A DNA stretch of 34,439 nt, taken from the NCBI GenBank assembly GCA_002085025.1, contig MZGK01000015.1, positions 1-34,439 of the forward strand, read 5' to 3'. Position 1 is the stretch's first letter. Every line of letters starts with the position of its first letter. The translations under genes were made by a program, and so were the position numbers. Source of the stretch: Candidatus Omnitrophica bacterium 4484_213 (lineage in GTDB: Bacteria > Omnitrophota > 4484-213). The notes below the pieces were generated by a model. It was not told where the DNA came from. It did no database searches and worked only from the letters and a program-made list of their open reading frames with translations. Shown here piece after piece: positions 9,420-34,194 of the stretch.

Positions 9420-10486
9420 ATAATAAAAATTCAAGAAGAATACTGGTGAGTGGAAACGAAGCGGTTGGGGAAGCGGCAATCCAGGCTGGATGCACTTTTT
9501 ATGCCGGTTATCCAATTACTCCCCAGAATGAACTCACCGCTTATATGTCCAGAAGGATGTCCGAAACCGGGGGGACTTTTATCCAGGCTGAGAGTGAGTT
9601 GGCGGCGATTAATATGGTCTTTGGCGCCTCGGCGGCTGGTGCGCGGGCAATGACCTCTTCCTCCAGCCCGGGAATTTCCTTGAAGCAAGAGGGGATTTCT
9701 TATCTCGTTGGTTGCAAACTGCCGGCAGTGATTGTAAATATGATGCGCGCCGGTCCGGGTTTAGGCAATATTACTCCTGCCCAGGGCGATTATTTTCAGG
9801 CAACCCGGGGCGGTGGCCACGGCGATTATCGGACAATTGTGCTTGCTCCGAGTTCTGTCCAGGAAGCATTTGAACTGCAGATACTCGCCTTTGATTTAGC
9901 TGATAAATACCGCAATCCGGTGATACTTTTAGGAGATGGAACGCTCGGGCAGATGATGGAACCGCTCACCCTACACCCTACACCCTACACCCTACACGCT
10001 ACTCAGAAACCCTGGGCGGTGACGGGTTGTAAAGAGAGAGAACCGAATGTAATTCGTTCCCTATTTCTAAAAGAAGGAGTTTTGGAAGAACACAACAAAA
10101 AATTGCAAAAAAAATTTGCCGAGATAGAAAAGAAAGAAATTCGTTATGAAGAGAAAAACACAGAGGATGCTGAGGTAATCCTGGTAGCTTATGGGACAGT
10201 AAGCCGAATCTGCCAGGCGGTAATGGAAAAAGCGAGAAGAAAAGGAGCCAAGGTTGGTTTAATCCGCCCGATTACTTTATGGCCGTTCCCTTACGGGATG
10301 ATAAATAAACTTGCTGATTTAAAGAAAAAATTTTTAGTGATAGAAATGAATTACGGCCAGATGCTTGAGGATGTAAAATTGGCAGCGGAAGGAAAGAGTA
10401 AGGTGAAATTTTATGGACGGGGAGGAGGGGGGATACCGCAAGAAGAGGAAATAATGACAGAACTTTTGCATTTCTCACTCTCGTGA
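9416..10486 (+). CDS. korA: 2-oxoacid:ferredoxin oxidoreductase, alpha subunit
   Basis: The alpha subunit carries the pyrimidine-binding and transketolase C-terminal-like domains of a CoA-dependent, oxygen-sensitive 2-oxoacid oxidoreductase, probably for 2-oxoglutarate. Motifs include AGYPITPQNELTAYM near residue 32, QAESELAAINMVFGAS, SSSSPGISLKQEG and a C-terminal LVAYGTVSR...LWPFP region. At 356 residues it is close to family length. Oddities: the linker after EPLTLH is read from five 7-bp repeats (9968-10002), and the last nine codons, ending in TGA, lie inside the left end of a repeat element (from 10457). The native C-terminus has therefore been replaced. That element now separates alpha from beta by 260 bp. 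2-oxoisovalerate or another 2-oxoacid is a possible alternative substrate. Confidence 0.88.
   Translation: MNNKNSRRILVSGNEAVGEAAIQAGCTFYAGYPITPQNELTAYMSRRMSETGGTFIQAESELAAINMVFGASAAGARAMTSSSSPGISLKQEGISYLVGCKLPAVIVNMMRAGPGLGNITPAQGDYFQATRGGGHGDYRTIVLAPSSVQEAFELQILAFDLADKYRNPVILLGDGTLGQMMEPLTLHPTPYTLHATQKPWAVTGCKEREPNVIRSLFLKEGVLEEHNKKLQKKFAEIEKKEIRYEEKNTEDAEVILVAYGTVSRICQAVMEKARRKGAKVGLIRPITLWPFPYGMINKLADLKKKFLVIEMNYGQMLEDVKLAAEGKSKVKFYGRGGGGIPQEEEIMTELLHFSLS
9968..10002 (+). repeat. Heptamer array, 5 x ACCCTAC, inside korA
   Basis: Four perfect ACCCTAC units and a fifth variant ACGCTAC, 35 bp in total, are translated as a Thr/Leu/His/Pro/Tyr linker in KorA. The length and copy number match the arrays at 1011-1045 and 12438-12472, although the unit sequence differs. 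Confidence 0.9.
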
Positions 10487-10727
10487 TTTTTATAGTTGCC
10501 CTGTGGGCAACTCCCCTAGCTTAACGCTAAAATCTGCGTTTCGGCAGGGCAAAATCAAACTTGGCCACCTCAGCCTCGAAACGGTTCGGGTCTTCGGCGG
10601 TCTTCGGACATGATTTGCTAGAACCTATATCATTATAGAGACGATAGAAATTGTCTCTAATAATACCTGCCTCAACTTGATTTTAGCTAAGAAAATCAAT
10701 GTTCGCTCAAAACGGCAAAAGTTCTGT
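10457..10727 (+). mobile_element. Inverted-repeat element, copy 1 (full length, with 13-bp terminal repeats)
   Basis: The element begins ACAGAACTTTTGC and ends GCAAAAGTTCTGT, a perfect 13-bp inverted repeat. Inside lies a second imperfect inverted pair: CTTAACGCTAAAATC on the left and GATTTTAGCTAAG on the right. No transposase is encoded, which fits a MITE-like element. Compared with copies 2 and 3 it has an extra GTTGCCC/GGGCAAC hairpin near 10497-10513 and a GAGACGATAGAAATTGTCTC stem near 10638-10658, but lacks the nested CCCCGTTAG element. It fills the whole korA-korB gap and supplies the korA stop codon. Confidence 0.8.
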
Positions 10728-12146: not shown

Positions 12147-13583
12147 ATGTTAAAGGTTAGATTTGCCCCCAGCCCTACCGGCTCATTGCACTTAGGCAGT
12201 GCGCGCACTGCCTTATTTAATTTCTTATTTGCCGGGAATAAAAAGGGGAGATTTGTTCTAAGGATTGAGGATAGCGATAGAGAGCGTTCAGATAAGAAAC
12301 TGGTGGAGGAAATTTTAGAAGACCTCCGCTGGTTAGGCTTGCAATGGGACGAGGGTCCCTATTTTCAGAGTGAAAGAATAGACCTCTACAAAAAATATGC
12401 CGAGAAGTTATTGAATGAAGGGAAAGCGTACTTGGAAAAAGCGCAAAGCGCAAAGCGCAAAGCGCAAAGCGCAGCTATAGTTTTTAAAGTACATCCGCAG
12501 AAGATTAAAATAAACGATTTGATTTACGGAGAAATTGAATTCGACACCAGTGTCCTCAAGGACCAGGTGTTGATGAAATCAGATGGTTCTCCTACCTATA
12601 ATTTTGCCTGCGTCATTGATGACCATCAACTGAGAATTACCCATATAATCCGCGGGGATGACCATATTTCCAATACCCCAAAGCAGATAATGTTTTATCA
12701 GGCACTTGGTTGGCAAATTCCTGAATTTGCTCATATTCCTTTGATTATGGAACCGGGAGGGGGGCGACTCTCCAAGCGCTACGGAGCAACTGCCGTGGGG
12801 GAATATCGCCAGAAAGGTTATTTGTCCGAGGCGCTAATTAATTATCTTGCTCTCTTGGGCTGGGCGCCGGCGGGCACCCGCGAGATTGTTTCTTTAGACG
12901 AAATGATTTCCAAATTCTCTTTGTCTAAAATCAACAAAACAAAGGCTATATTTAATATTGACAAGCTAAATTGGCTTAACGCTCAGTATATTAAACAAAC
13001 GGAGACAAAAAGGATGGTGGAGCTTTGTATTCCTTTTTTGCGGAAGGACGGATTAATCTCTAATGATTACGATTTTAGCCACTTAGAGAAAATCGTTGAT
13101 TTATTTAAAGGGCGGCTAAAGTATCTTTCCCAAATCAGTGCGATGGCTGATTATTTCTTTCTACCGGCAAGGCTAAAGTATTCAAAAGAAGCAAAAACCG
13201 TTATTAAAAAATTAGATAAAGAAATTTGGCAGGAGTTAATAAAGCGATTAGATAATATAGATGATTTTACCCCGTTAGAGAAAGCTGTCGATTTTAATCG
13301 GCGGTCATTACCGATTAAAGGTGACGGTGGTTTAAAGCCGCCGTCACCCCAGACCCTTAGAGAACGAAGTTCTCCAACGGGGTTTACTGCCGATAACGTA
13401 GAAAAGGCTTGCCGTGAGATAATTGCTGAAAAGGGAATAAAGGGCGCCGAACTTATCCATCCCCTAAGAGCGGCTTTAACTAATATGCCAGTAGGGCCGG
13501 GTTTATTTGAGTTAATTTCTGTATTAGGAAAGAAAAAGGCGATAGAGAGACTTAAAGTATGCCTCGCTACGCTTGGCATATGA
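12147..13583 (+). CDS. gltX: Glutamate--tRNA ligase
   Basis: A class I glutamyl-tRNA synthetase of 478 residues. FAPSPTGSLHLGSARTAL carries the HIGH-like motif and RLSKRYGA the KMSKS-like loop. The anticodon-binding region ends in HPLRAALTNMPVGPGLFELI. Two insertions are visible. After GKAYLE, where relatives continue with a CxC-containing segment and an RYDGRC motif, there is only AQSAKRK-type sequence read from five AAAGCGC heptamers, so about 40 residues seem to be missing. In the C-terminal third, 113 bp (13270-13382) of palindromic element are translated in frame with flanking TTTA duplications. The gene may be functional, or it may be a damaged copy in a genome with another GluRS. A GGAG lies only 2 bases before the ATG. 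Confidence 0.92.
   Translation: MLKVRFAPSPTGSLHLGSARTALFNFLFAGNKKGRFVLRIEDSDRERSDKKLVEEILEDLRWLGLQWDEGPYFQSERIDLYKKYAEKLLNEGKAYLEKAQSAKRKAQSAAIVFKVHPQKIKINDLIYGEIEFDTSVLKDQVLMKSDGSPTYNFACVIDDHQLRITHIIRGDDHISNTPKQIMFYQALGWQIPEFAHIPLIMEPGGGRLSKRYGATAVGEYRQKGYLSEALINYLALLGWAPAGTREIVSLDEMISKFSLSKINKTKAIFNIDKLNWLNAQYIKQTETKRMVELCIPFLRKDGLISNDYDFSHLEKIVDLFKGRLKYLSQISAMADYFFLPARLKYSKEAKTVIKKLDKEIWQELIKRLDNIDDFTPLEKAVDFNRRSLPIKGDGGLKPPSPQTLRERSSPTGFTADNVEKACREIIAEKGIKGAELIHPLRAALTNMPVGPGLFELISVLGKKKAIERLKVCLATLGI
12438..12472 (+). repeat. Heptamer array, 5 x AAAGCGC, inside gltX
   Basis: Five perfect AAAGCGC units (35 bp) encode AQSAKRK-like residues at the point where the usual GluRS CxC/RYDGRC segment should be. 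It is the same size as the arrays in korA and the BNR gene. Confidence 0.92.
13270..13382 (+). mobile_element. CCCCGTTAG...AACGGGG palindromic element inside gltX
   Basis: The left end CCCCGTTAGAGAA and right end TTCTCCAACGGGG are near-complementary. Inside are a GGTGACGGTGG/CCGCCGTCACC stem and an AGAGAAC/GTTCTC stem. TTTA lies on both sides (13266-13269 and 13383-13386), consistent with a 4-bp target duplication. It is translated in frame as about 38 residues of GltX. Confidence 0.75.
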
Positions 13584-16782: not shown

Positions 16783-16851
16783 ACTTGAGCTACGCTCAAG
16801 TCCCTTAGGAGCGAACATTATTTGGAATTTATACTTGACCTTTGGTCAAGT
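16783..16851 (+). repeat. Pair of related hairpins before mtaB
   Basis: TTTATACTTGAGC-TAC-GCTCAAGTCCCTTAGG and TTTATACTTGACC-TTT-GGTCAAGTTCCCTAGG are two tandem 8-bp-stem hairpins with the same flanks, about 50 bp apart. They may be terminator or regulatory stems, or a repeat family. ATTATACTTGACT upstream of ilvB (29156 on) resembles the left arm. Confidence 0.6.
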
Positions 16852-16905
16852 TCCCTAGGGTCATTGGGATTTACTTAACCCTGACTCTGGCAAAGTTGAG
16901 TTATT

Positions 16906-18189
16906 ATGACCATCACCTTCAAAACCATTGGATGCAAGGTCAATCAGTATGAGACGCAATTACTGCGCGAGCAGTTTGCTTCTATTGGCTGGCAGGAAGT
17001 CGAGGAAGGTGGGGATGTCTATCTAATAAATACCTGTTCGGTTACTGCTGCCGCCGATAGAAAATCAAGGTATCTGATAAACAGTGCCTTAAAACTAAAC
17101 CCTCAGCCAAAAGTGATAGTTATTGGCTGTGGAGTGAATAACAGATTTAGCGGAATTAGAGATATTAAAGGGGTAGTTTTTAATGTCCGAAGTTTCGCTT
17201 CGGACAAACCCCAAACCATCTCTTATTTTAAAAATCATACTCGGGCATTTATCAAAATTCAAGACGGGTGTGATAACTTTTGCTCCTTTTGCATTATTCC
17301 TTATTTGCGGGGAAGATCTCGCAGTCGAGATGTAGAACAAATTATAACAGAGGTAAAACAATTAGCTGATAATCGGTTCAAGGAAATAATTCTCAGCGGG
17401 GTTAATTTAGGGGCTTACGGAAAGGATATCGGGATGAATCTAATAGATCTGATTGAGGAGTTAGAAAAGATAAAGGGGATTGAAAGGATTAGATTGAGTT
17501 CGCTAAACCCAGAGGATGTTACTCAAGATTTAATCGCCAAATTTAGGGATTCCCAAAAACTCTGCCCGCATCTCCATATCTCTCTTCAGAGCGGGGATGA
17601 TGCTGTCCTGAAGAGGATGAACCGTCCTTATACCAGTAGTGACTTTTTAAATTTAATAGAAAGAATTAGAAAAATAGACCCTTTATTCTCCTTTACTACT
17701 GACATCTTAATTGGCTTTCCTGGTGAAGGAGAAAGAGAGTTTCTAAACACGCTAAAGTTGGTAAAGAAAGTAGAATTCACTCGCACTCATATCTTTTCTT
17801 ATAGCCCACGAGAAGGTACTAAAGCGGCAAGTTTCCCCCAGATGGTTTGTTCGGCTGAGATTAAGAGAAGGCTCAATCTTCTCAAAGAGATAACCGCAGA
17901 GTCTTCTTATAACTATCGTCGAAGGTTCCTAAATCAAGATGCAGGCCCCGTTAGAAACAGAACACCAAAGGTATCCGTCGGTCACCGAAGGCAATCTTTC
18001 TTTAGCAGCGTAAAGGTCTTAGTAGAAGATAAAAAAGATAAAAATGGTTACCTAAAGGGCTACACCGAGCGTTATGTTAAAGTTCTTTTAAAAGGAAGCA
18101 ATAAGTTGAAAAATAAGATAATTTCTGTTAAAATAAACAAAGTGGATGTAGAGAGAACCTTTGGAGTAGTTGAGCGGAGCGAAAGATAA
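16906..18189 (+). CDS. mtaB: tRNA (N6-threonylcarbamoyladenosine(37)-C2)-methylthiotransferase MtaB
   Basis: A radical-SAM methylthiotransferase that adds a methylthio group to t6A37 in ANN-decoding tRNAs. The UPF0004 domain starts TIGCKVNQYETQ with NTCSVTAAAD and IGCG, the first iron-sulfur cluster cysteines. The radical-SAM motif is GCDNFCSFCIIPYLRGRSRSR near residue 122. HISLQSGDD and TDILIGFPGE follow. The C-terminal TRAM domain is disturbed by an in-frame insertion starting PVRNRTPKV (17946-18008). A second insertion, a 23-bp TCCGAAG hairpin (17184-17206), sits between the two cluster domains. At 427 residues it is a normal length. It pairs functionally with tsaE and tsaB, which serve t6A synthesis later in this window. 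The stop overlaps the next ATG by one base. Confidence 0.93.
   Translation: MTITFKTIGCKVNQYETQLLREQFASIGWQEVEEGGDVYLINTCSVTAAADRKSRYLINSALKLNPQPKVIVIGCGVNNRFSGIRDIKGVVFNVRSFASDKPQTISYFKNHTRAFIKIQDGCDNFCSFCIIPYLRGRSRSRDVEQIITEVKQLADNRFKEIILSGVNLGAYGKDIGMNLIDLIEELEKIKGIERIRLSSLNPEDVTQDLIAKFRDSQKLCPHLHISLQSGDDAVLKRMNRPYTSSDFLNLIERIRKIDPLFSFTTDILIGFPGEGEREFLNTLKLVKKVEFTRTHIFSYSPREGTKAASFPQMVCSAEIKRRLNLLKEITAESSYNYRRRFLNQDAGPVRNRTPKVSVGHRRQSFFSSVKVLVEDKKDKNGYLKGYTERYVKVLLKGSNKLKNKIISVKINKVDVERTFGVVERSER
17184..17206 (+). repeat. TGTCCGAAGTTTCGCTTCGGACA hairpin in mtaB
   Basis: A 23-bp hairpin with a 10-bp stem (TGTCCGAAGT-type) is translated as part of NVRSFASDK in MtaB. An identical 23-mer lies inside tsaB at 27632-27654. 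Two exact copies inside unrelated genes point to a mobile or copied palindrome. Confidence 0.85.
17946..18008 (+). repeat. CCCCGTTAGAAA element, partial, in the mtaB TRAM region
   Basis: CCCCGTTAGAAACAG matches the left end of the nested family. CCGTCGGTCACCGAAGG inside is a near-palindrome. The right end is degenerate (CTTTCTTTAGC). It is translated in frame as PVRNRTPKV and so on. Confidence 0.5.
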
Positions 18190-20242: not shown

Positions 20243-20959
20243 ATGAATATTCCCATTCTTATCCCTGTTTATAATGAGCAGGCGACTATTGGACAATTGG
20301 TGAAAGAATGCCGCCGCTATTCCGATAGTATATATGTCGTTAATGATGGCTCAAGAGATAGGAGTGCGCAGATTGCCCAAGATGAAGGAGCGGTTATTAT
20401 TACTCACAGTAAGAATAAAGGAAAGGGAGCATCCCTTCGCGATGGCTTTCAAGAGATTCTCAAAGAGGATTTCAAGGCTCTCATTACTATGGATGGAGAT
20501 GGGCAGCACGATCCTCTTGAAATACCCAAGTTTATCCAGAAGTTTCAAGAGACTAACGCCGATTTAATTCTGGGCAGCAGAATAGATAGAAAAACAATGC
20601 CCTTTATTCGCCGGATTACTAATAGATTTATGTCGCGACTCATATCTTCTATGGTCGGACAAAGGATTCCCGATACTCAATCCGGGTTTCGTCTAATTAA
20701 GACAGAGATACTGAAAAATATCAATTTAGAAACATCTAATTTTGAGATAGAATCAGAGTTAATTATGAAAGCAAGCAGAATGGGTTGCCGAATTATTTCT
20801 ATTCCCATTTCTACTATCTATCGGCGGGAAAGAAGTAAGATTAAGCCAATAACAGACGCCTGGAGATTTTTGAGGTTGGTTATTAACCCTGTTAGGAATT
20901 CTGATGAGAAGCTCTTTCAAAACTTGGAAGGTTTATCTCATTCTAAGGGTAATTTCTAA
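20243..20959 (+). CDS. GT2 family glycosyltransferase (dolichyl/undecaprenyl-phosphate-sugar synthase-like)
   Basis: A 238-residue GT-A enzyme. PVYNEQATIGQLV at the start, VVNDGSRDRS near residue 32, MDGDGQHDP (metal-binding DxD) near 86, and DTQSGFRL near 150 match the polyprenyl-phosphate mannosyl/glucosyl synthase group. It lacks C-terminal membrane segments. The last 24 residues (NPVRNSDEKLF onward) come from a 77-bp palindromic element, so the native C-terminus has been cut off and replaced. It likely belongs to the envelope glycolipid group upstream. Confidence 0.88.
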   Translation: MNIPILIPVYNEQATIGQLVKECRRYSDSIYVVNDGSRDRSAQIAQDEGAVIITHSKNKGKGASLRDGFQEILKEDFKALITMDGDGQHDPLEIPKFIQKFQETNADLILGSRIDRKTMPFIRRITNRFMSRLISSMVGQRIPDTQSGFRLIKTEILKNINLETSNFEIESELIMKASRMGCRIISIPISTIYRRERSKIKPITDAWRFLRLVINPVRNSDEKLFQNLEGLSHSKGNF

Positions 20960-20963
20960 CGGG
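20887..20963 (+). mobile_element. CCCTGTTAGGAATTC...TTTCTAACGGG element at the GT2 3' end
   Basis: The ends CCCTGTTAGGAATT and AATTTCTAACGGG pair imperfectly. The 77-bp element is read as NPVRNS and so on, and includes the GT2 stop codon TAA. It is a member of the CCCCGTTAGAAAT family; no flanking duplication is visible. Confidence 0.7.
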
Positions 20964-20970
20964 CGAAAAG

Positions 20971-23905: not shown

Positions 23906-23915
23906 ATTGGCAAGG

Positions 23916-24151
23916 ATTTTTGCATTCCTCGCTCTCGTGGGTTTTTCTTAACGCTAAAATCTGCGTTTCGGCAGGCAAAAATCAAACTCGCCCGCCTCTG
24001 CCCCTCAACATTTCGGGACATCGGCGGTCTCCGTTAGAAATATCTGTTTTTTTATGTTTCAGTGTTAGAAGTTTGGCAAAATTGCTGACATTGGGAATTT
24101 CTAACGGGGTCAACTCGATTTTAGCTAAAAAAACCAATGTTCGCTCAAAAC
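23916..24151 (+). mobile_element. Inverted-repeat element, copy 2, with nested CCGTTAG element
   Basis: TTTTTGCATTCCTCGCTCTCG to ATGTTCGCTCAAAAC is nearly identical to copy 3 at 33782-34029. The nested element runs 24031-24109; here its left end and about 13 bp of host sequence (TCCTGCCTCAACC) are deleted. There is no convincing coding sequence of its own. The last 15 bases provide the apparent start (MFAQN) of the CPBP protein. Confidence 0.85.
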
Positions 24152-25084
24152 AACAAAGAGATATCTACACTTGGTTCAAACTCTTTAACTCAAAAGATAA
24201 AAGCGGAGGAATTAAGCAAAGTAGTTGCGGAGAATAAAAGTTTGAAAGAGAAATTATCGGTTATTAGCTTCTTTTTTACATTGATTTTAATAAGCGGGAT
24301 AGTTTTATTAATGAGATTTTGTTATTTGAAACTACAAGGAAAAGAAATAATAAATAGATTTTCAGAAGTCCCCATTAGGATTAACTGGGAAATAGGAGAT
24401 ATCGCGAGGGTAATAATATTGCTCCTCTTTTTTGCTTATTTTATCCATATTTTTTTATACCTTCTTTTTCGCCTGTTTTTAGTTAATCTTCATTCTAATC
24501 TAAGATCCATTATTAGCACAGGAATTGTTGACCTTCTCGCTTTATTTTTTGTTTTTTATTTTGTGCTTAAAAAGTATAAACAGAAAATTACCTCTTTAGG
24601 AATAAATTTTAAACATTTCTTTAAGAAAATAAAATTGGGAGTCGCAATCTATATCGCTATTATACCTATTTTAGTTCTATTAGTTGTTTTTCTTGGGACT
24701 CTGGTACAGCGGTTGAATTATCAACCACCAGTACATCCTTTAGCAAATATCATTCTTGGAGAAAAAAATATCCTTTTTTTAATCTTCTTGTTTTTATTAG
24801 GGGCGATTATCGGACCAATCATTGAGGAAATCTTTTTTCGGGGATTTGCTTATCCGGCGCTCAAAAAGAAAACAGGGATATTTTTTTCTATTATAATTAC
24901 GGCGACTTTTTTTGCCGCTTTGCACCAAAACCTCTTTGCTTTTCTGCCTATATTCTTCTTGGGAGTGGTTTTAGCCTATGTTTATGAAAAGAGCGATTCG
25001 CTAATTCCCTCAATGACCATTCACATTTTACACAATTCTCTGATGATTACGGGGATGTTTCTGATGAAAAAAAATCTTTTTTGA
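24137..25084 (+). CDS. CPBP family intramembrane glutamic-type protease
   Basis: A 315-residue membrane protein with about eight hydrophobic segments. The Abi/CPBP catalytic motifs are IIEEIFFRGFAYPAL near residue 232, ALHQNLFAF near 257 and HILHNSLM near 299. Family members include Rce1-type prenyl proteases and bacteriocin-immunity proteins; the substrate here is unknown. The ATG and first five codons come from the right end of the repeat element. A coiled, charged stretch (KIKAEELSKVVAENKSLKEKL) precedes the first membrane helix, so the natural start could lie further downstream. It is 9 bases from a site-2 protease gene, so the two membrane proteases are probably co-transcribed. Confidence 0.87.
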   Translation: MFAQNNKEISTLGSNSLTQKIKAEELSKVVAENKSLKEKLSVISFFFTLILISGIVLLMRFCYLKLQGKEIINRFSEVPIRINWEIGDIARVIILLLFFAYFIHIFLYLLFRLFLVNLHSNLRSIISTGIVDLLALFFVFYFVLKKYKQKITSLGINFKHFFKKIKLGVAIYIAIIPILVLLVVFLGTLVQRLNYQPPVHPLANIILGEKNILFLIFLFLLGAIIGPIIEEIFFRGFAYPALKKKTGIFFSIIITATFFAALHQNLFAFLPIFFLGVVLAYVYEKSDSLIPSMTIHILHNSLMITGMFLMKKNLF

Positions 25085-25748: not shown

Positions 25749-26747
25749 ATGGAAATTGGTGAAATTGGAGAAATAGACTTAATTGATAAAATTGCCCGCG
25801 AGACAAAGATAGATAGAACTGTAATCAAGGGAATTGGCGATGATACAGCTGTTCTAAAATATTCCAACAAAGAGTATCTATTATTTACCACTGATATGCT
25901 ATTGGAAGGAGTCCACTTTACCCACTTGCGCCCCAGGGGTGCAAGTAAGGTCAGGCTCTTTTATAATATTGGCTGGAAGTCTTTGGCTTGCTCTATCAGT
26001 GATATTGCGGCAATGGGTGGAATTCCTCAATATTGCCTCGTTTCTCTTGGATTGCCACCAAATTTAGAATTGGATTCTCTTAAGCAATTATACTCAGGAA
26101 TTAAAACGATTGCCCGAAAATTTAAGATTAATGTTGTTGGCGGAGATACTATAAAAAGCAGGAGATTAATTATCAATATTGCTCTTTTAGGAAGGGTGCT
26201 TAAGGAAAAGTTGGTTCTTCGTTCAGGGGCGAAAAAGGGAGATGCTATTTTAGTAACAGGAAGCTTGGGGGAAGCTATTTTGGGTAAACATTTGGCCTTT
26301 ACCCCGTTAGAGAAGTTTTTAACACGGAGTAAAAGAGGTATCCATAATGTTGGAGAGTGCTCAAAGTATTCTTTAACGGGATTTACTCCTCGCTTAAAAG
26401 AAGCTCAATACTTGGTAAATAATTTCAAGATTCATTCAATGATTGATATTTCCGATGGTTTGATTTTGGATTTATGGCGTATTTTAAAACAGAGCGGGAA
26501 GGGGGCAAAGATTTTTTTAGAAAAAATTCCTATTTCGGCGGTGGCCAAGAGAGGAAAAAACGGCTTAAAGAAAGCGTTATACGGCGGAGAGGATTTTGAA
26601 TTGTTATTTACTGCAAGCAAAAGAACGGCTCAAAAAATAGCTGCTCAGAAACTGGCGCGCATCATCGGAGAAATTAACGACAGAAGGAATATTATAGAAT
26701 CCTCTGATGGAAGGAAGCTAAGGATAAATGGCTATCGACACTTTTGA
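25749..26747 (+). CDS. thiL: Thiamine-monophosphate kinase
   Basis: An ATP-dependent kinase making thiamine diphosphate, the cofactor of KorB and IlvB in this window. I chose ATG 25749 (MEIGEIGEIDLIDKI), which matches family N-termini, over the TTG at 25725. GIGDDTAVL near residue 30, TDMLLEGVHF, SISDIAAMGG, VGGDTIKS and IDISDGLILDL are PurM-like metal- and substrate-binding motifs. YGGEDFELLF is present near the end. An 80-bp palindromic element (26302-26381) with TTTA on both sides is read in frame between GEAILGKHL and FTPRLKEAQ. The gene overlaps tsaE by 20 bases. Confidence 0.92.
   Translation: MEIGEIGEIDLIDKIARETKIDRTVIKGIGDDTAVLKYSNKEYLLFTTDMLLEGVHFTHLRPRGASKVRLFYNIGWKSLACSISDIAAMGGIPQYCLVSLGLPPNLELDSLKQLYSGIKTIARKFKINVVGGDTIKSRRLIINIALLGRVLKEKLVLRSGAKKGDAILVTGSLGEAILGKHLAFTPLEKFLTRSKRGIHNVGECSKYSLTGFTPRLKEAQYLVNNFKIHSMIDISDGLILDLWRILKQSGKGAKIFLEKIPISAVAKRGKNGLKKALYGGEDFELLFTASKRTAQKIAAQKLARIIGEINDRRNIIESSDGRKLRINGYRHF
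26302..26381 (+). mobile_element. CCCCGTTAGAG...TTTAACGGGA element inside thiL
   Basis: The ends CCCCGTTAGAGAAG and CTTTAACGGGA are imperfectly complementary. TTTA lies directly on each side (26298-26301 and 26382-26385), consistent with a 4-bp target duplication. It adds about 28 residues to ThiL without a frame break. Confidence 0.7.
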
Positions 26748-33767: not shown

Positions 33768-33781
33768 CTATGCCAACAGAA

Positions 33782-34029
33782 GTTTTGCATTTCTCGCTCT
33801 CGTGGGTTTTTCTTAACGCTAAAATCTGCGTTTCGGCAGGCAAAAATCAAACTCGCCCGCCTCTGCCCCTCAACATTTCGGGACATCGGCGGTCTCTCCT
33901 GCCTCAACCCCGTTAGAAATATCTGTTTTTTATGTTTCAGTGTTAGAAGTTTGGCAAAATTGCTGACATTGGGAATTTCTAACGGGGTCAACTCGATTTT
34001 AGCTAAAAAAACCAATGTTCGCTCAAAAC
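33782..34029 (+). mobile_element. Inverted-repeat element, copy 3, with nested CCCCGTTAG element
   Basis: GTTTTGCATTTCTCGCTCTCG to ATGTTCGCTCAAAAC. The left (GGGTTTTTCTTAACGCTAAAATC) and right (GATTTTAGCTAAAAAAACC) parts are inverted to each other. The sequence is nearly identical to copy 2 apart from small indels. The nested element is complete and bounded by TCAA on both sides. The right end supplies the start of the next small ORF. Confidence 0.88.
33908..33987 (+). mobile_element. Nested CCCCGTTAGAAAT...ATTTCTAACGGGG element with TCAA duplication
   Basis: An 80-bp element with ends CCCCGTTAGAAAT and AATTTCTAACGGGG. TCAA precedes (33904-33907) and follows (33988-33991) it. The matching site in copy 1 reads CCTCAACTTGATTTTAG with a single TCAA and no element, so this is a filled site next to an empty one. 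Confidence 0.85.
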
Positions 34030-34194
34030 ATAATCTTTTGCATCATAATCGCTTTTTTTATGTTTATTTTTTATAAAGTAATTCATCCGGTGAATATAAT
34101 GATGGTGAGGGAGTATAAGGATTATATGTTAAATACTGATGATGAGAAGGATGTTCAGAATAAAGTTGAAGGGCGGATTGAGGTAACCCAATAG
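34015..34194 (+). CDS. Small membrane protein, hypothetical
   Basis: A 59-codon ORF: MFAQN from the repeat end, a strongly hydrophobic IIFCIIIAFFMFIFYKV stretch, then a charged tail (MMVREYKDYMLNTDDEKD and so on) ending VTQ and TAG. One membrane helix with a cytoplasmic or periplasmic tail is likely. The family is not recognised. Its start is made by the repeat element, exactly as for the CPBP gene. It is below the ORF-track length. Confidence 0.5.
   Translation: MFAQNIIFCIIIAFFMFIFYKVIHPVNIMMVREYKDYMLNTDDEKDVQNKVEGRIEVTQ

Follow-up and report, generated by a model that had tools for sequence, protein, structure and literature searches.

A coding-compatible palindromic element, probably mobilized in trans, whose end sequences recur in at least eight bacterial phyla

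How does a short palindrome come to occupy some copies of a repeat and not others, with the same four letters on either side of it? The window analysed here, a stretch of 34,439 nucleotides from a 0.93-Mb Omnitrophota genome that we call G000, carries three forward-strand copies of a larger repeat, with approximate bounds 10459–10726 (copy 1), 23915–24152 (copy 2) and 33774–34036 (copy 3). In copy 3, an 80-bp palindromic element (33908–33987), which starts with CCCCGTTAG, finishes with CTAACGGGG and has a 13-bp terminal inverted repeat (CCCCGTTAGAAAT / ATTTCTAACGGGG), stands between two copies of TCAA (33904–33907 and 33988–33991), so that the order is CCTGCC, TCAA, the 80 bp, TCAA and then CTCGATTTTAG. 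Copy 1, which has other insertions, is empty at this site and runs CCTGCC, a single TCAA (10672–10675) and CTTGATTTTAG. Copy 2 is filled at about 24029–24109, but a small deletion took the 5′ flank, the left TCAA and the first bases of the element; about 14 bp are missing on that side (ctcctgcctcaacc) and the right TCAA alone remains. Base-by-base alignment of the three copies agrees with an earlier, sequence-only reading of the window, which had reported the element in copies 2 and 3 and its absence from copy 1, had placed the TCAAs correctly to the base and had implied the loss on the left of copy 2.

That reading had taken the filled and empty sites as a sign that the element moves. The sites are real, but the filled copies all descend from one event. 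Nine more copies of the larger repeat align with a single TCAA and no element (on contigs C44 and C48 of G000, five in the same-genus genome G002 and two in the same-family genome G003), and a third filled copy lies on contig C22 of G000 (16829–16916). All three filled copies have TCAACTCG; at this point the empty copies read TCAACTTG or something close to it. This linked base change points to a single insertion that was later multiplied as a passenger, and on this alignment the 80-bp copy is the product of one insertion into the larger repeat, which then spread it. The case for mobility must therefore rest on independent copies.

The larger repeat has peculiarities of its own. Its copy 1 contains extra sequence relative to the other copies at 10603–10666 (about gctagaacc...ctctaataata), probably another insertion. 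Together with copies at other loci (L341, L346, L348, L351–L354 and L359), it forms a dispersed palindromic family of its own, with dozens of matches in G002. Its outermost 4–7 bases vary between copies yet are complementary across the two ends of any one copy (AGAAG...CTTCT, AGGAG...CTCCT and AGAAT...ATTCT, for example), as if the copies were sited in small palindromes or one end had been copied from the other.

An independent copy of the 80-bp element's family lies in gltX (12147–13583, forward strand), which encodes a glutamyl-tRNA synthetase of 478 amino acids (best solved chain 2o5r, glutamyl-tRNA synthetase 1, E = 7e-106). Here a 113-bp element (13270–13382), with TTTA on each side, adds 39 amino acids in frame (TPLE...PTGF). 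The flanks of this site meet gaplessly in G002 (81% identity) and G003 (74%), both of which are empty here; the matching contig of the same-genus genome G001 stops at the insertion site. Matched empty sites in relatives, which had been set beforehand as a test of transposition, were thus found both at the larger repeat and, independently, in gltX.

Flanking sequences across the family tell the same story on a larger scale. We collected 233 elements, 22–320 bp long as searched, from G000, its relatives and at least 115 named stretches; the source data are draft metagenome assemblies, and the elements are partly non-independent, some sharing a genome or subfamily. Exact 4-bp repeats flank 118 of the 233, compared with a mean of 18.3 and a maximum of 32 when flanks are permuted, and repeats of 3, 5 and 6 bp flank 7, 5 and none of them, respectively. 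This sharp excess at one length, likewise set beforehand as a test, supports the proposal of a small transposable element with a 4-bp target duplication. Every duplicated target fits YNNR, the majority being T..A and chiefly TTTA/TAAA, TCAA/TTGA and TGAA/TTCA, and the two flanks repeat each other in the same orientation and do not prolong the palindrome. As judged from these junctions, the element inserts at 4-bp YNNR targets and leaves the target duplicated, and empty sites are present.

The distribution of the family is both wide and patchy. The 12-mer CCCCGTTAGAAA occurs 50 times in G000, compared with once for a reversed-pattern control, 62 times in G001 and 20 times in G003, but is absent from same-genus G002 and from the same-family genome G004. 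In the fetched loci, 371 inverted end pairs lie 20–320 bp apart, a figure that includes overlapping loci and loci chosen for carrying a pair, compared with 0–1 for each of four control 10-mers. A scan of a species-level genome collection, in which both ends had to be exact, yielded at least 115 stretches. Hosts among the matches listed include Patescibacteria (Kaiser-, Uhr-, Jorgensen-, Kerfeld- and Nealsonbacteria, among others), Omnitrophota, Planctomycetota (Phycisphaerae and Brocadia), Deltaproteobacteria/Syntrophaceae/Desulfobacterales, Cloacimonadota, Stahlbacteria, KSB1, Bacteroidetes and Thermodesulfovibrionales, and by exact match identical end sequences recur in at least eight bacterial phyla. 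Dispersal by phage was considered and set aside, two scans of IMG/VR having turned up the end pair on only 7 contigs.

The window also holds a degenerate family member (20887–20964), which lies at the end of an ORF (20243–20959) and lacks a target duplication, and two solitary forward-strand end sequences (17946–17958 and 26302–26314) for which no partner was found. Elsewhere, some elements are joined in tandem by one 4-bp target copy (L232, 2942–3105; L162, 1465–1532), an arrangement that suggests either that an element landed in a duplication already there or that the pair was amplified through it. A 32–33-bp element with a TAAA duplication occupies the same place in G000 and G001 (L101, 4690–4722; L090, 1481–1512), which indicates that short copies can be old and have in some cases been inherited stably.

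Like the gltX element, nearly all genic copies are compatible with the frame of their host gene. A site was counted as genic when removal of the element and one target copy left an uninterrupted reading frame of 180 codons or more spanning the junction; ORFs were called mechanically and homology was checked for few. By this count, frame-compatible lengths (2 modulo 3, such that length plus 4 is divisible by three) are found at 37 of 39 genic sites and 25 of 65 intergenic ones (Fisher p = 2.4e-9), and at 33 of those 37 genic sites the frame is still open through the element. Because element length plays no part in the ORF test, the bias is not circular. Its simplest reading is survivorship, in which frame-breaking genic insertions were removed or the genes that received them decayed. 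The arms themselves contain stop codons, TAG on the left and TAA on the right; at a length of 2 modulo 3, both stops share one frame, leaving two frames open, and the encoded peptides are accordingly of two kinds, xPVR...SNGV (25 cases) and TPLE...LTGF-like (8 cases).

Comparison with solved homologues locates several of these peptides. In aspartate-semialdehyde dehydrogenase, npvrnwflrgssdisngv falls in a gap relative to the best-matching solved homologue, with both flanks aligned; the DnaE insert sits between two aligned blocks; and in the glutamyl-tRNA synthetase the inserted peptide is unaligned and its flanks match. For the DHOase at L030 the alignment starts just past the insert and so gives no information on it, and L270 had no PDB match at E 1e-20. 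Nine elements, from several phyla, lie directly before the type IV prepilin motif GFTL(I/L/V)E (L095, L232, L272, L285 and L303), where the element's last codons (LTGF) help to rebuild the motif and provide its Gly, LTGF being joined to TLIEV. The prepilin leader is normally cleaved off and would thus be a tolerant landing place for elements.

No transposase is encoded in the interior between the arms (roughly 3 to 290 bp); that one would be needed in trans, as the sequence-only reading had argued, is a reasonable inference. The terminal inverted repeat is 13 bp long (CCCCGTTAGANNN) and comprises 10 conserved bases, CCCCGTTAGA, and three whose partners lie in the opposite arm of one and the same element. 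For elements 56 bp or longer, arm bases 1–10 are conserved at about 95–100%, whereas bases 11, 12 and 13 are complementary to the mirror position in 96, 91 and 75% of cases; exchanging ends among elements lowers these values to 44, 61 and 35%. Beyond base 13, pairing is at chance level. With one element taken per locus, positions 11–13 are all paired in 118 of 166 elements (permuted mean 18.8, maximum 34) and positions 14–16 in 7 of 166. Eighteen distinct triplets were seen fully paired at positions 11–13, at least five of them repeatedly within G000. Short forms are most often 29 bp long, with two 13-bp arms around 3 bp, and several elements of 29–33 bp keep intact 4-bp duplications. A near-identical 32-bp element is present in G012 (L168, 1181–1212) and in a Cloacimonadota contig (L241, 206–237), and the two differ by a compensatory pair change at stem position 8.

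The features of the family, namely 13-bp arms, a fixed 4-bp duplication, short length without a transposase and dispersed multicopy occurrence with filled/empty polymorphism, are those of a MITE, and we think it probable that these are non-autonomous, MITE-like and coding-compatible palindromic elements mobilized in trans by a transposase. The 4-bp duplications, the empty sites, the copy number relative to control, the ends shared across phyla, the reading-frame bias, the unaligned peptides between matching flanks and the covarying arms all support this explanation. Of these, the reach over phyla, the frame bias and the pairing at arm positions 11–13 go beyond what the sequence-only reading had noticed. 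A trans-acting enzyme would recognize the arms and insert the element at a 4-bp YNNR target, which would be duplicated in the process; as the stagger is fixed at 4 bp, the enzyme is probably of the DDE type. Copies within genes would be the survivors of selection, and a frame-compatible insertion would provide the host protein with a peptide such as xPVR...SNGV or TPLE...LTGF. Several findings sit less well with this explanation, the negative searches for a transposase (given below) among them. Elements of 29–33 bp with intact duplications are awkwardly short for the binding and synapsis of two duplex ends, and at least five paired triplets in one genome are not easily reconciled with a single sequence-specific end-binding protein.

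Several narrower or rival explanations were weighed. The conventional sub-case of the MITE-like explanation, in which the elements are internally deleted derivatives of an ordinary IS with CCCCGTTAG ends and a 4-bp duplication, whose autonomous copies were lost or collapsed in drafts, has the classic origin of MITEs behind it and gains from the tendency of IS copies to break metagenome assemblies, the G001 contig ending at the gltX site. However, no autonomous transposon sharing the family's ends was found in the fetched loci or in ten draft genomes, nor did the fetched loci or listed end coordinates reveal any element of IS size that combines these ends with a transposase gene; moreover, interiors differ widely although the ends hardly vary from phylum to phylum. 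Fifteen IS-sized candidates, each an end pair that encloses a long ORF and has the same 4 bp on both sides, were rejected; those opened (L254, L260, L278 and L158) contain ordinary genes, and others are either two separate short elements joined or poor matches at one end. Among eight genomes searched, DDE_Tnp_1 was found only in G000 and G012 and most element-rich genomes lack it; the sole such gene in G000 (L188, 586–2233, contig 43) is a decayed, IS1182-like one whose perfect 13-bp inverted ends, CCTTCACGAAACT, are unrelated. Elements of the piggyBac and IS1380 type produce 4-bp target duplications and have ends beginning with CCC, and piggyBac has a 13-bp terminal repeat, all of which recall the present family; the family targets YNNR and is not restricted to TTAA, however, and neither the IS1380-type transposase (PF13701) nor the IS701-type (PF13546) was found in any of ten genomes. 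We therefore regard the IS derivative as possible but on balance unlikely. Far less credible is movement by a RAYT (REP-associated Y1/HUH transposase), one kind of enzyme towards which the sequence-only reading had directed the search. REP/REPIN sequences are likewise small palindromes scattered through genomes and may be served by an enzyme in trans, and Y1_Tnp was found in 48 of 58 relatives, but its presence bears no relation to element number: G023 has 64 end sequences and no Y1 match, and G002 has Y1 genes and no elements. No intact CCCCGTTAGA end pair surrounds the Y1 genes examined, the nearest element being an unrelated one of 32 bp that lies about 0.8–1.1 kb from, and does not flank, the Y1 gene of G012 (L201/L168). 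The ends read CCCC...GGGG, no GTAG tag stands beside the palindrome in the end and flank sequences, and, to our knowledge, HUH enzymes are not expected to produce fixed 4-bp duplications. We give next to no weight to immobile structural RNA or terminator hairpins flanked by repeats through chance; the palindromes are strong and some are intergenic, but varied targets are duplicated base for base, empty sites are clean, insertions lie inside conserved enzymes and a consistent T-run 3′ of the palindrome was not seen. An integron attC-like reading was set aside by reasoning, the ends being wrongly oriented and the target duplicated.

The arms raise a more radical alternative, that the element moves as a folded single strand. 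An enzyme would recognize the 13-bp stem, 10 bases by sequence and 3 by pairing only, and the hairpin would be joined into a 4-nucleotide staggered break whose fill-in makes the duplication. The varied triplets that match within but not between elements, the sharp end of pairing after position 13 and the compensatory change at stem position 8 all fit such a mechanism, and the 29-bp form, some examples of which have intact duplications, corresponds to a minimal hairpin loop. Yet several related transposases with symmetrical end recognition would likewise match the inner bases, longer elements could have given rise to the short forms by internal deletion, and a fixed 4-bp duplication is what duplex transposition ordinarily gives. 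Arm pairing and short forms fit either several related end-binding transposases or a pairing-only stem. Taking the evidence as a whole, we consider it doubtful, and less likely than descent from a conventional IS, that this is a pan-phylum mobile DNA hairpin, down to 29 nucleotides long and moved by an undescribed enzyme acting on a folded strand.

The MITE-like elements described here have partial counterparts among known repeats. Like the bacterial MITEs NEMIS/Correia, RUP and ERIC, they are short, with terminal inverted repeats, a target-site duplication, no transposase and presumed mobilization in trans, but each of those families is limited to particular lineages and has ends of the TA type (PMC2229807), whereas the present family crosses phyla, has covarying arms and has no parent IS that we could find. 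REP/REPIN sequences differ in their GTAG tag, their association with RAYTs and the absence from them of a fixed 4-bp duplication. The closest likeness in behaviour is to the Rickettsia palindromic elements (RPE; Ogata et al. 2000, 2002), small dispersed palindromes that lie in frame in conserved protein genes, as reviewed (PMC2229807, PMC10969869); both encode an open frame, and for neither is the mobilizing enzyme known. RPE, however, are about 105–150 bp long, have been described in Rickettsia (Wolbachia being the subject of a separate report) and have a CGTC tag at one end (PMC3733652); for their target duplication the review gives no more than "unknown" (PMC2229807). The present elements start at about 29 bp, span at least eight phyla, have CCCCGTTAGA ends in place of the tag and show an explicit 4-bp duplication; by sequence, tag and host alike, the family is not RPE. 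Our search of the open literature, outside which subscription papers lie, found no description of the family, nor of the end sequence ccccgttaga in such a sense.

Palindromic insertions that encode protein have been described mainly from Rickettsia, with their mode of movement unknown. The family reported here shows coding-compatible behaviour across many phyla, together with an explicit duplication, a target rule and an end sequence, which make the mobilizing enzyme a definable target. Should the folded-strand mechanism be true, a mobile hairpin would have spread among unrelated, mostly uncultivated bacteria, adding in-frame peptides to essential proteins. The family also provides a simple account of the odd peptides (xPVR...SNGV and TPLE...LTGF) in conserved enzymes of uncultivated bacteria, where the inserted sequences have a bearing on gene calling, alignment and structure prediction, and it constitutes a natural experiment on the tolerance of proteins to peptide insertions.
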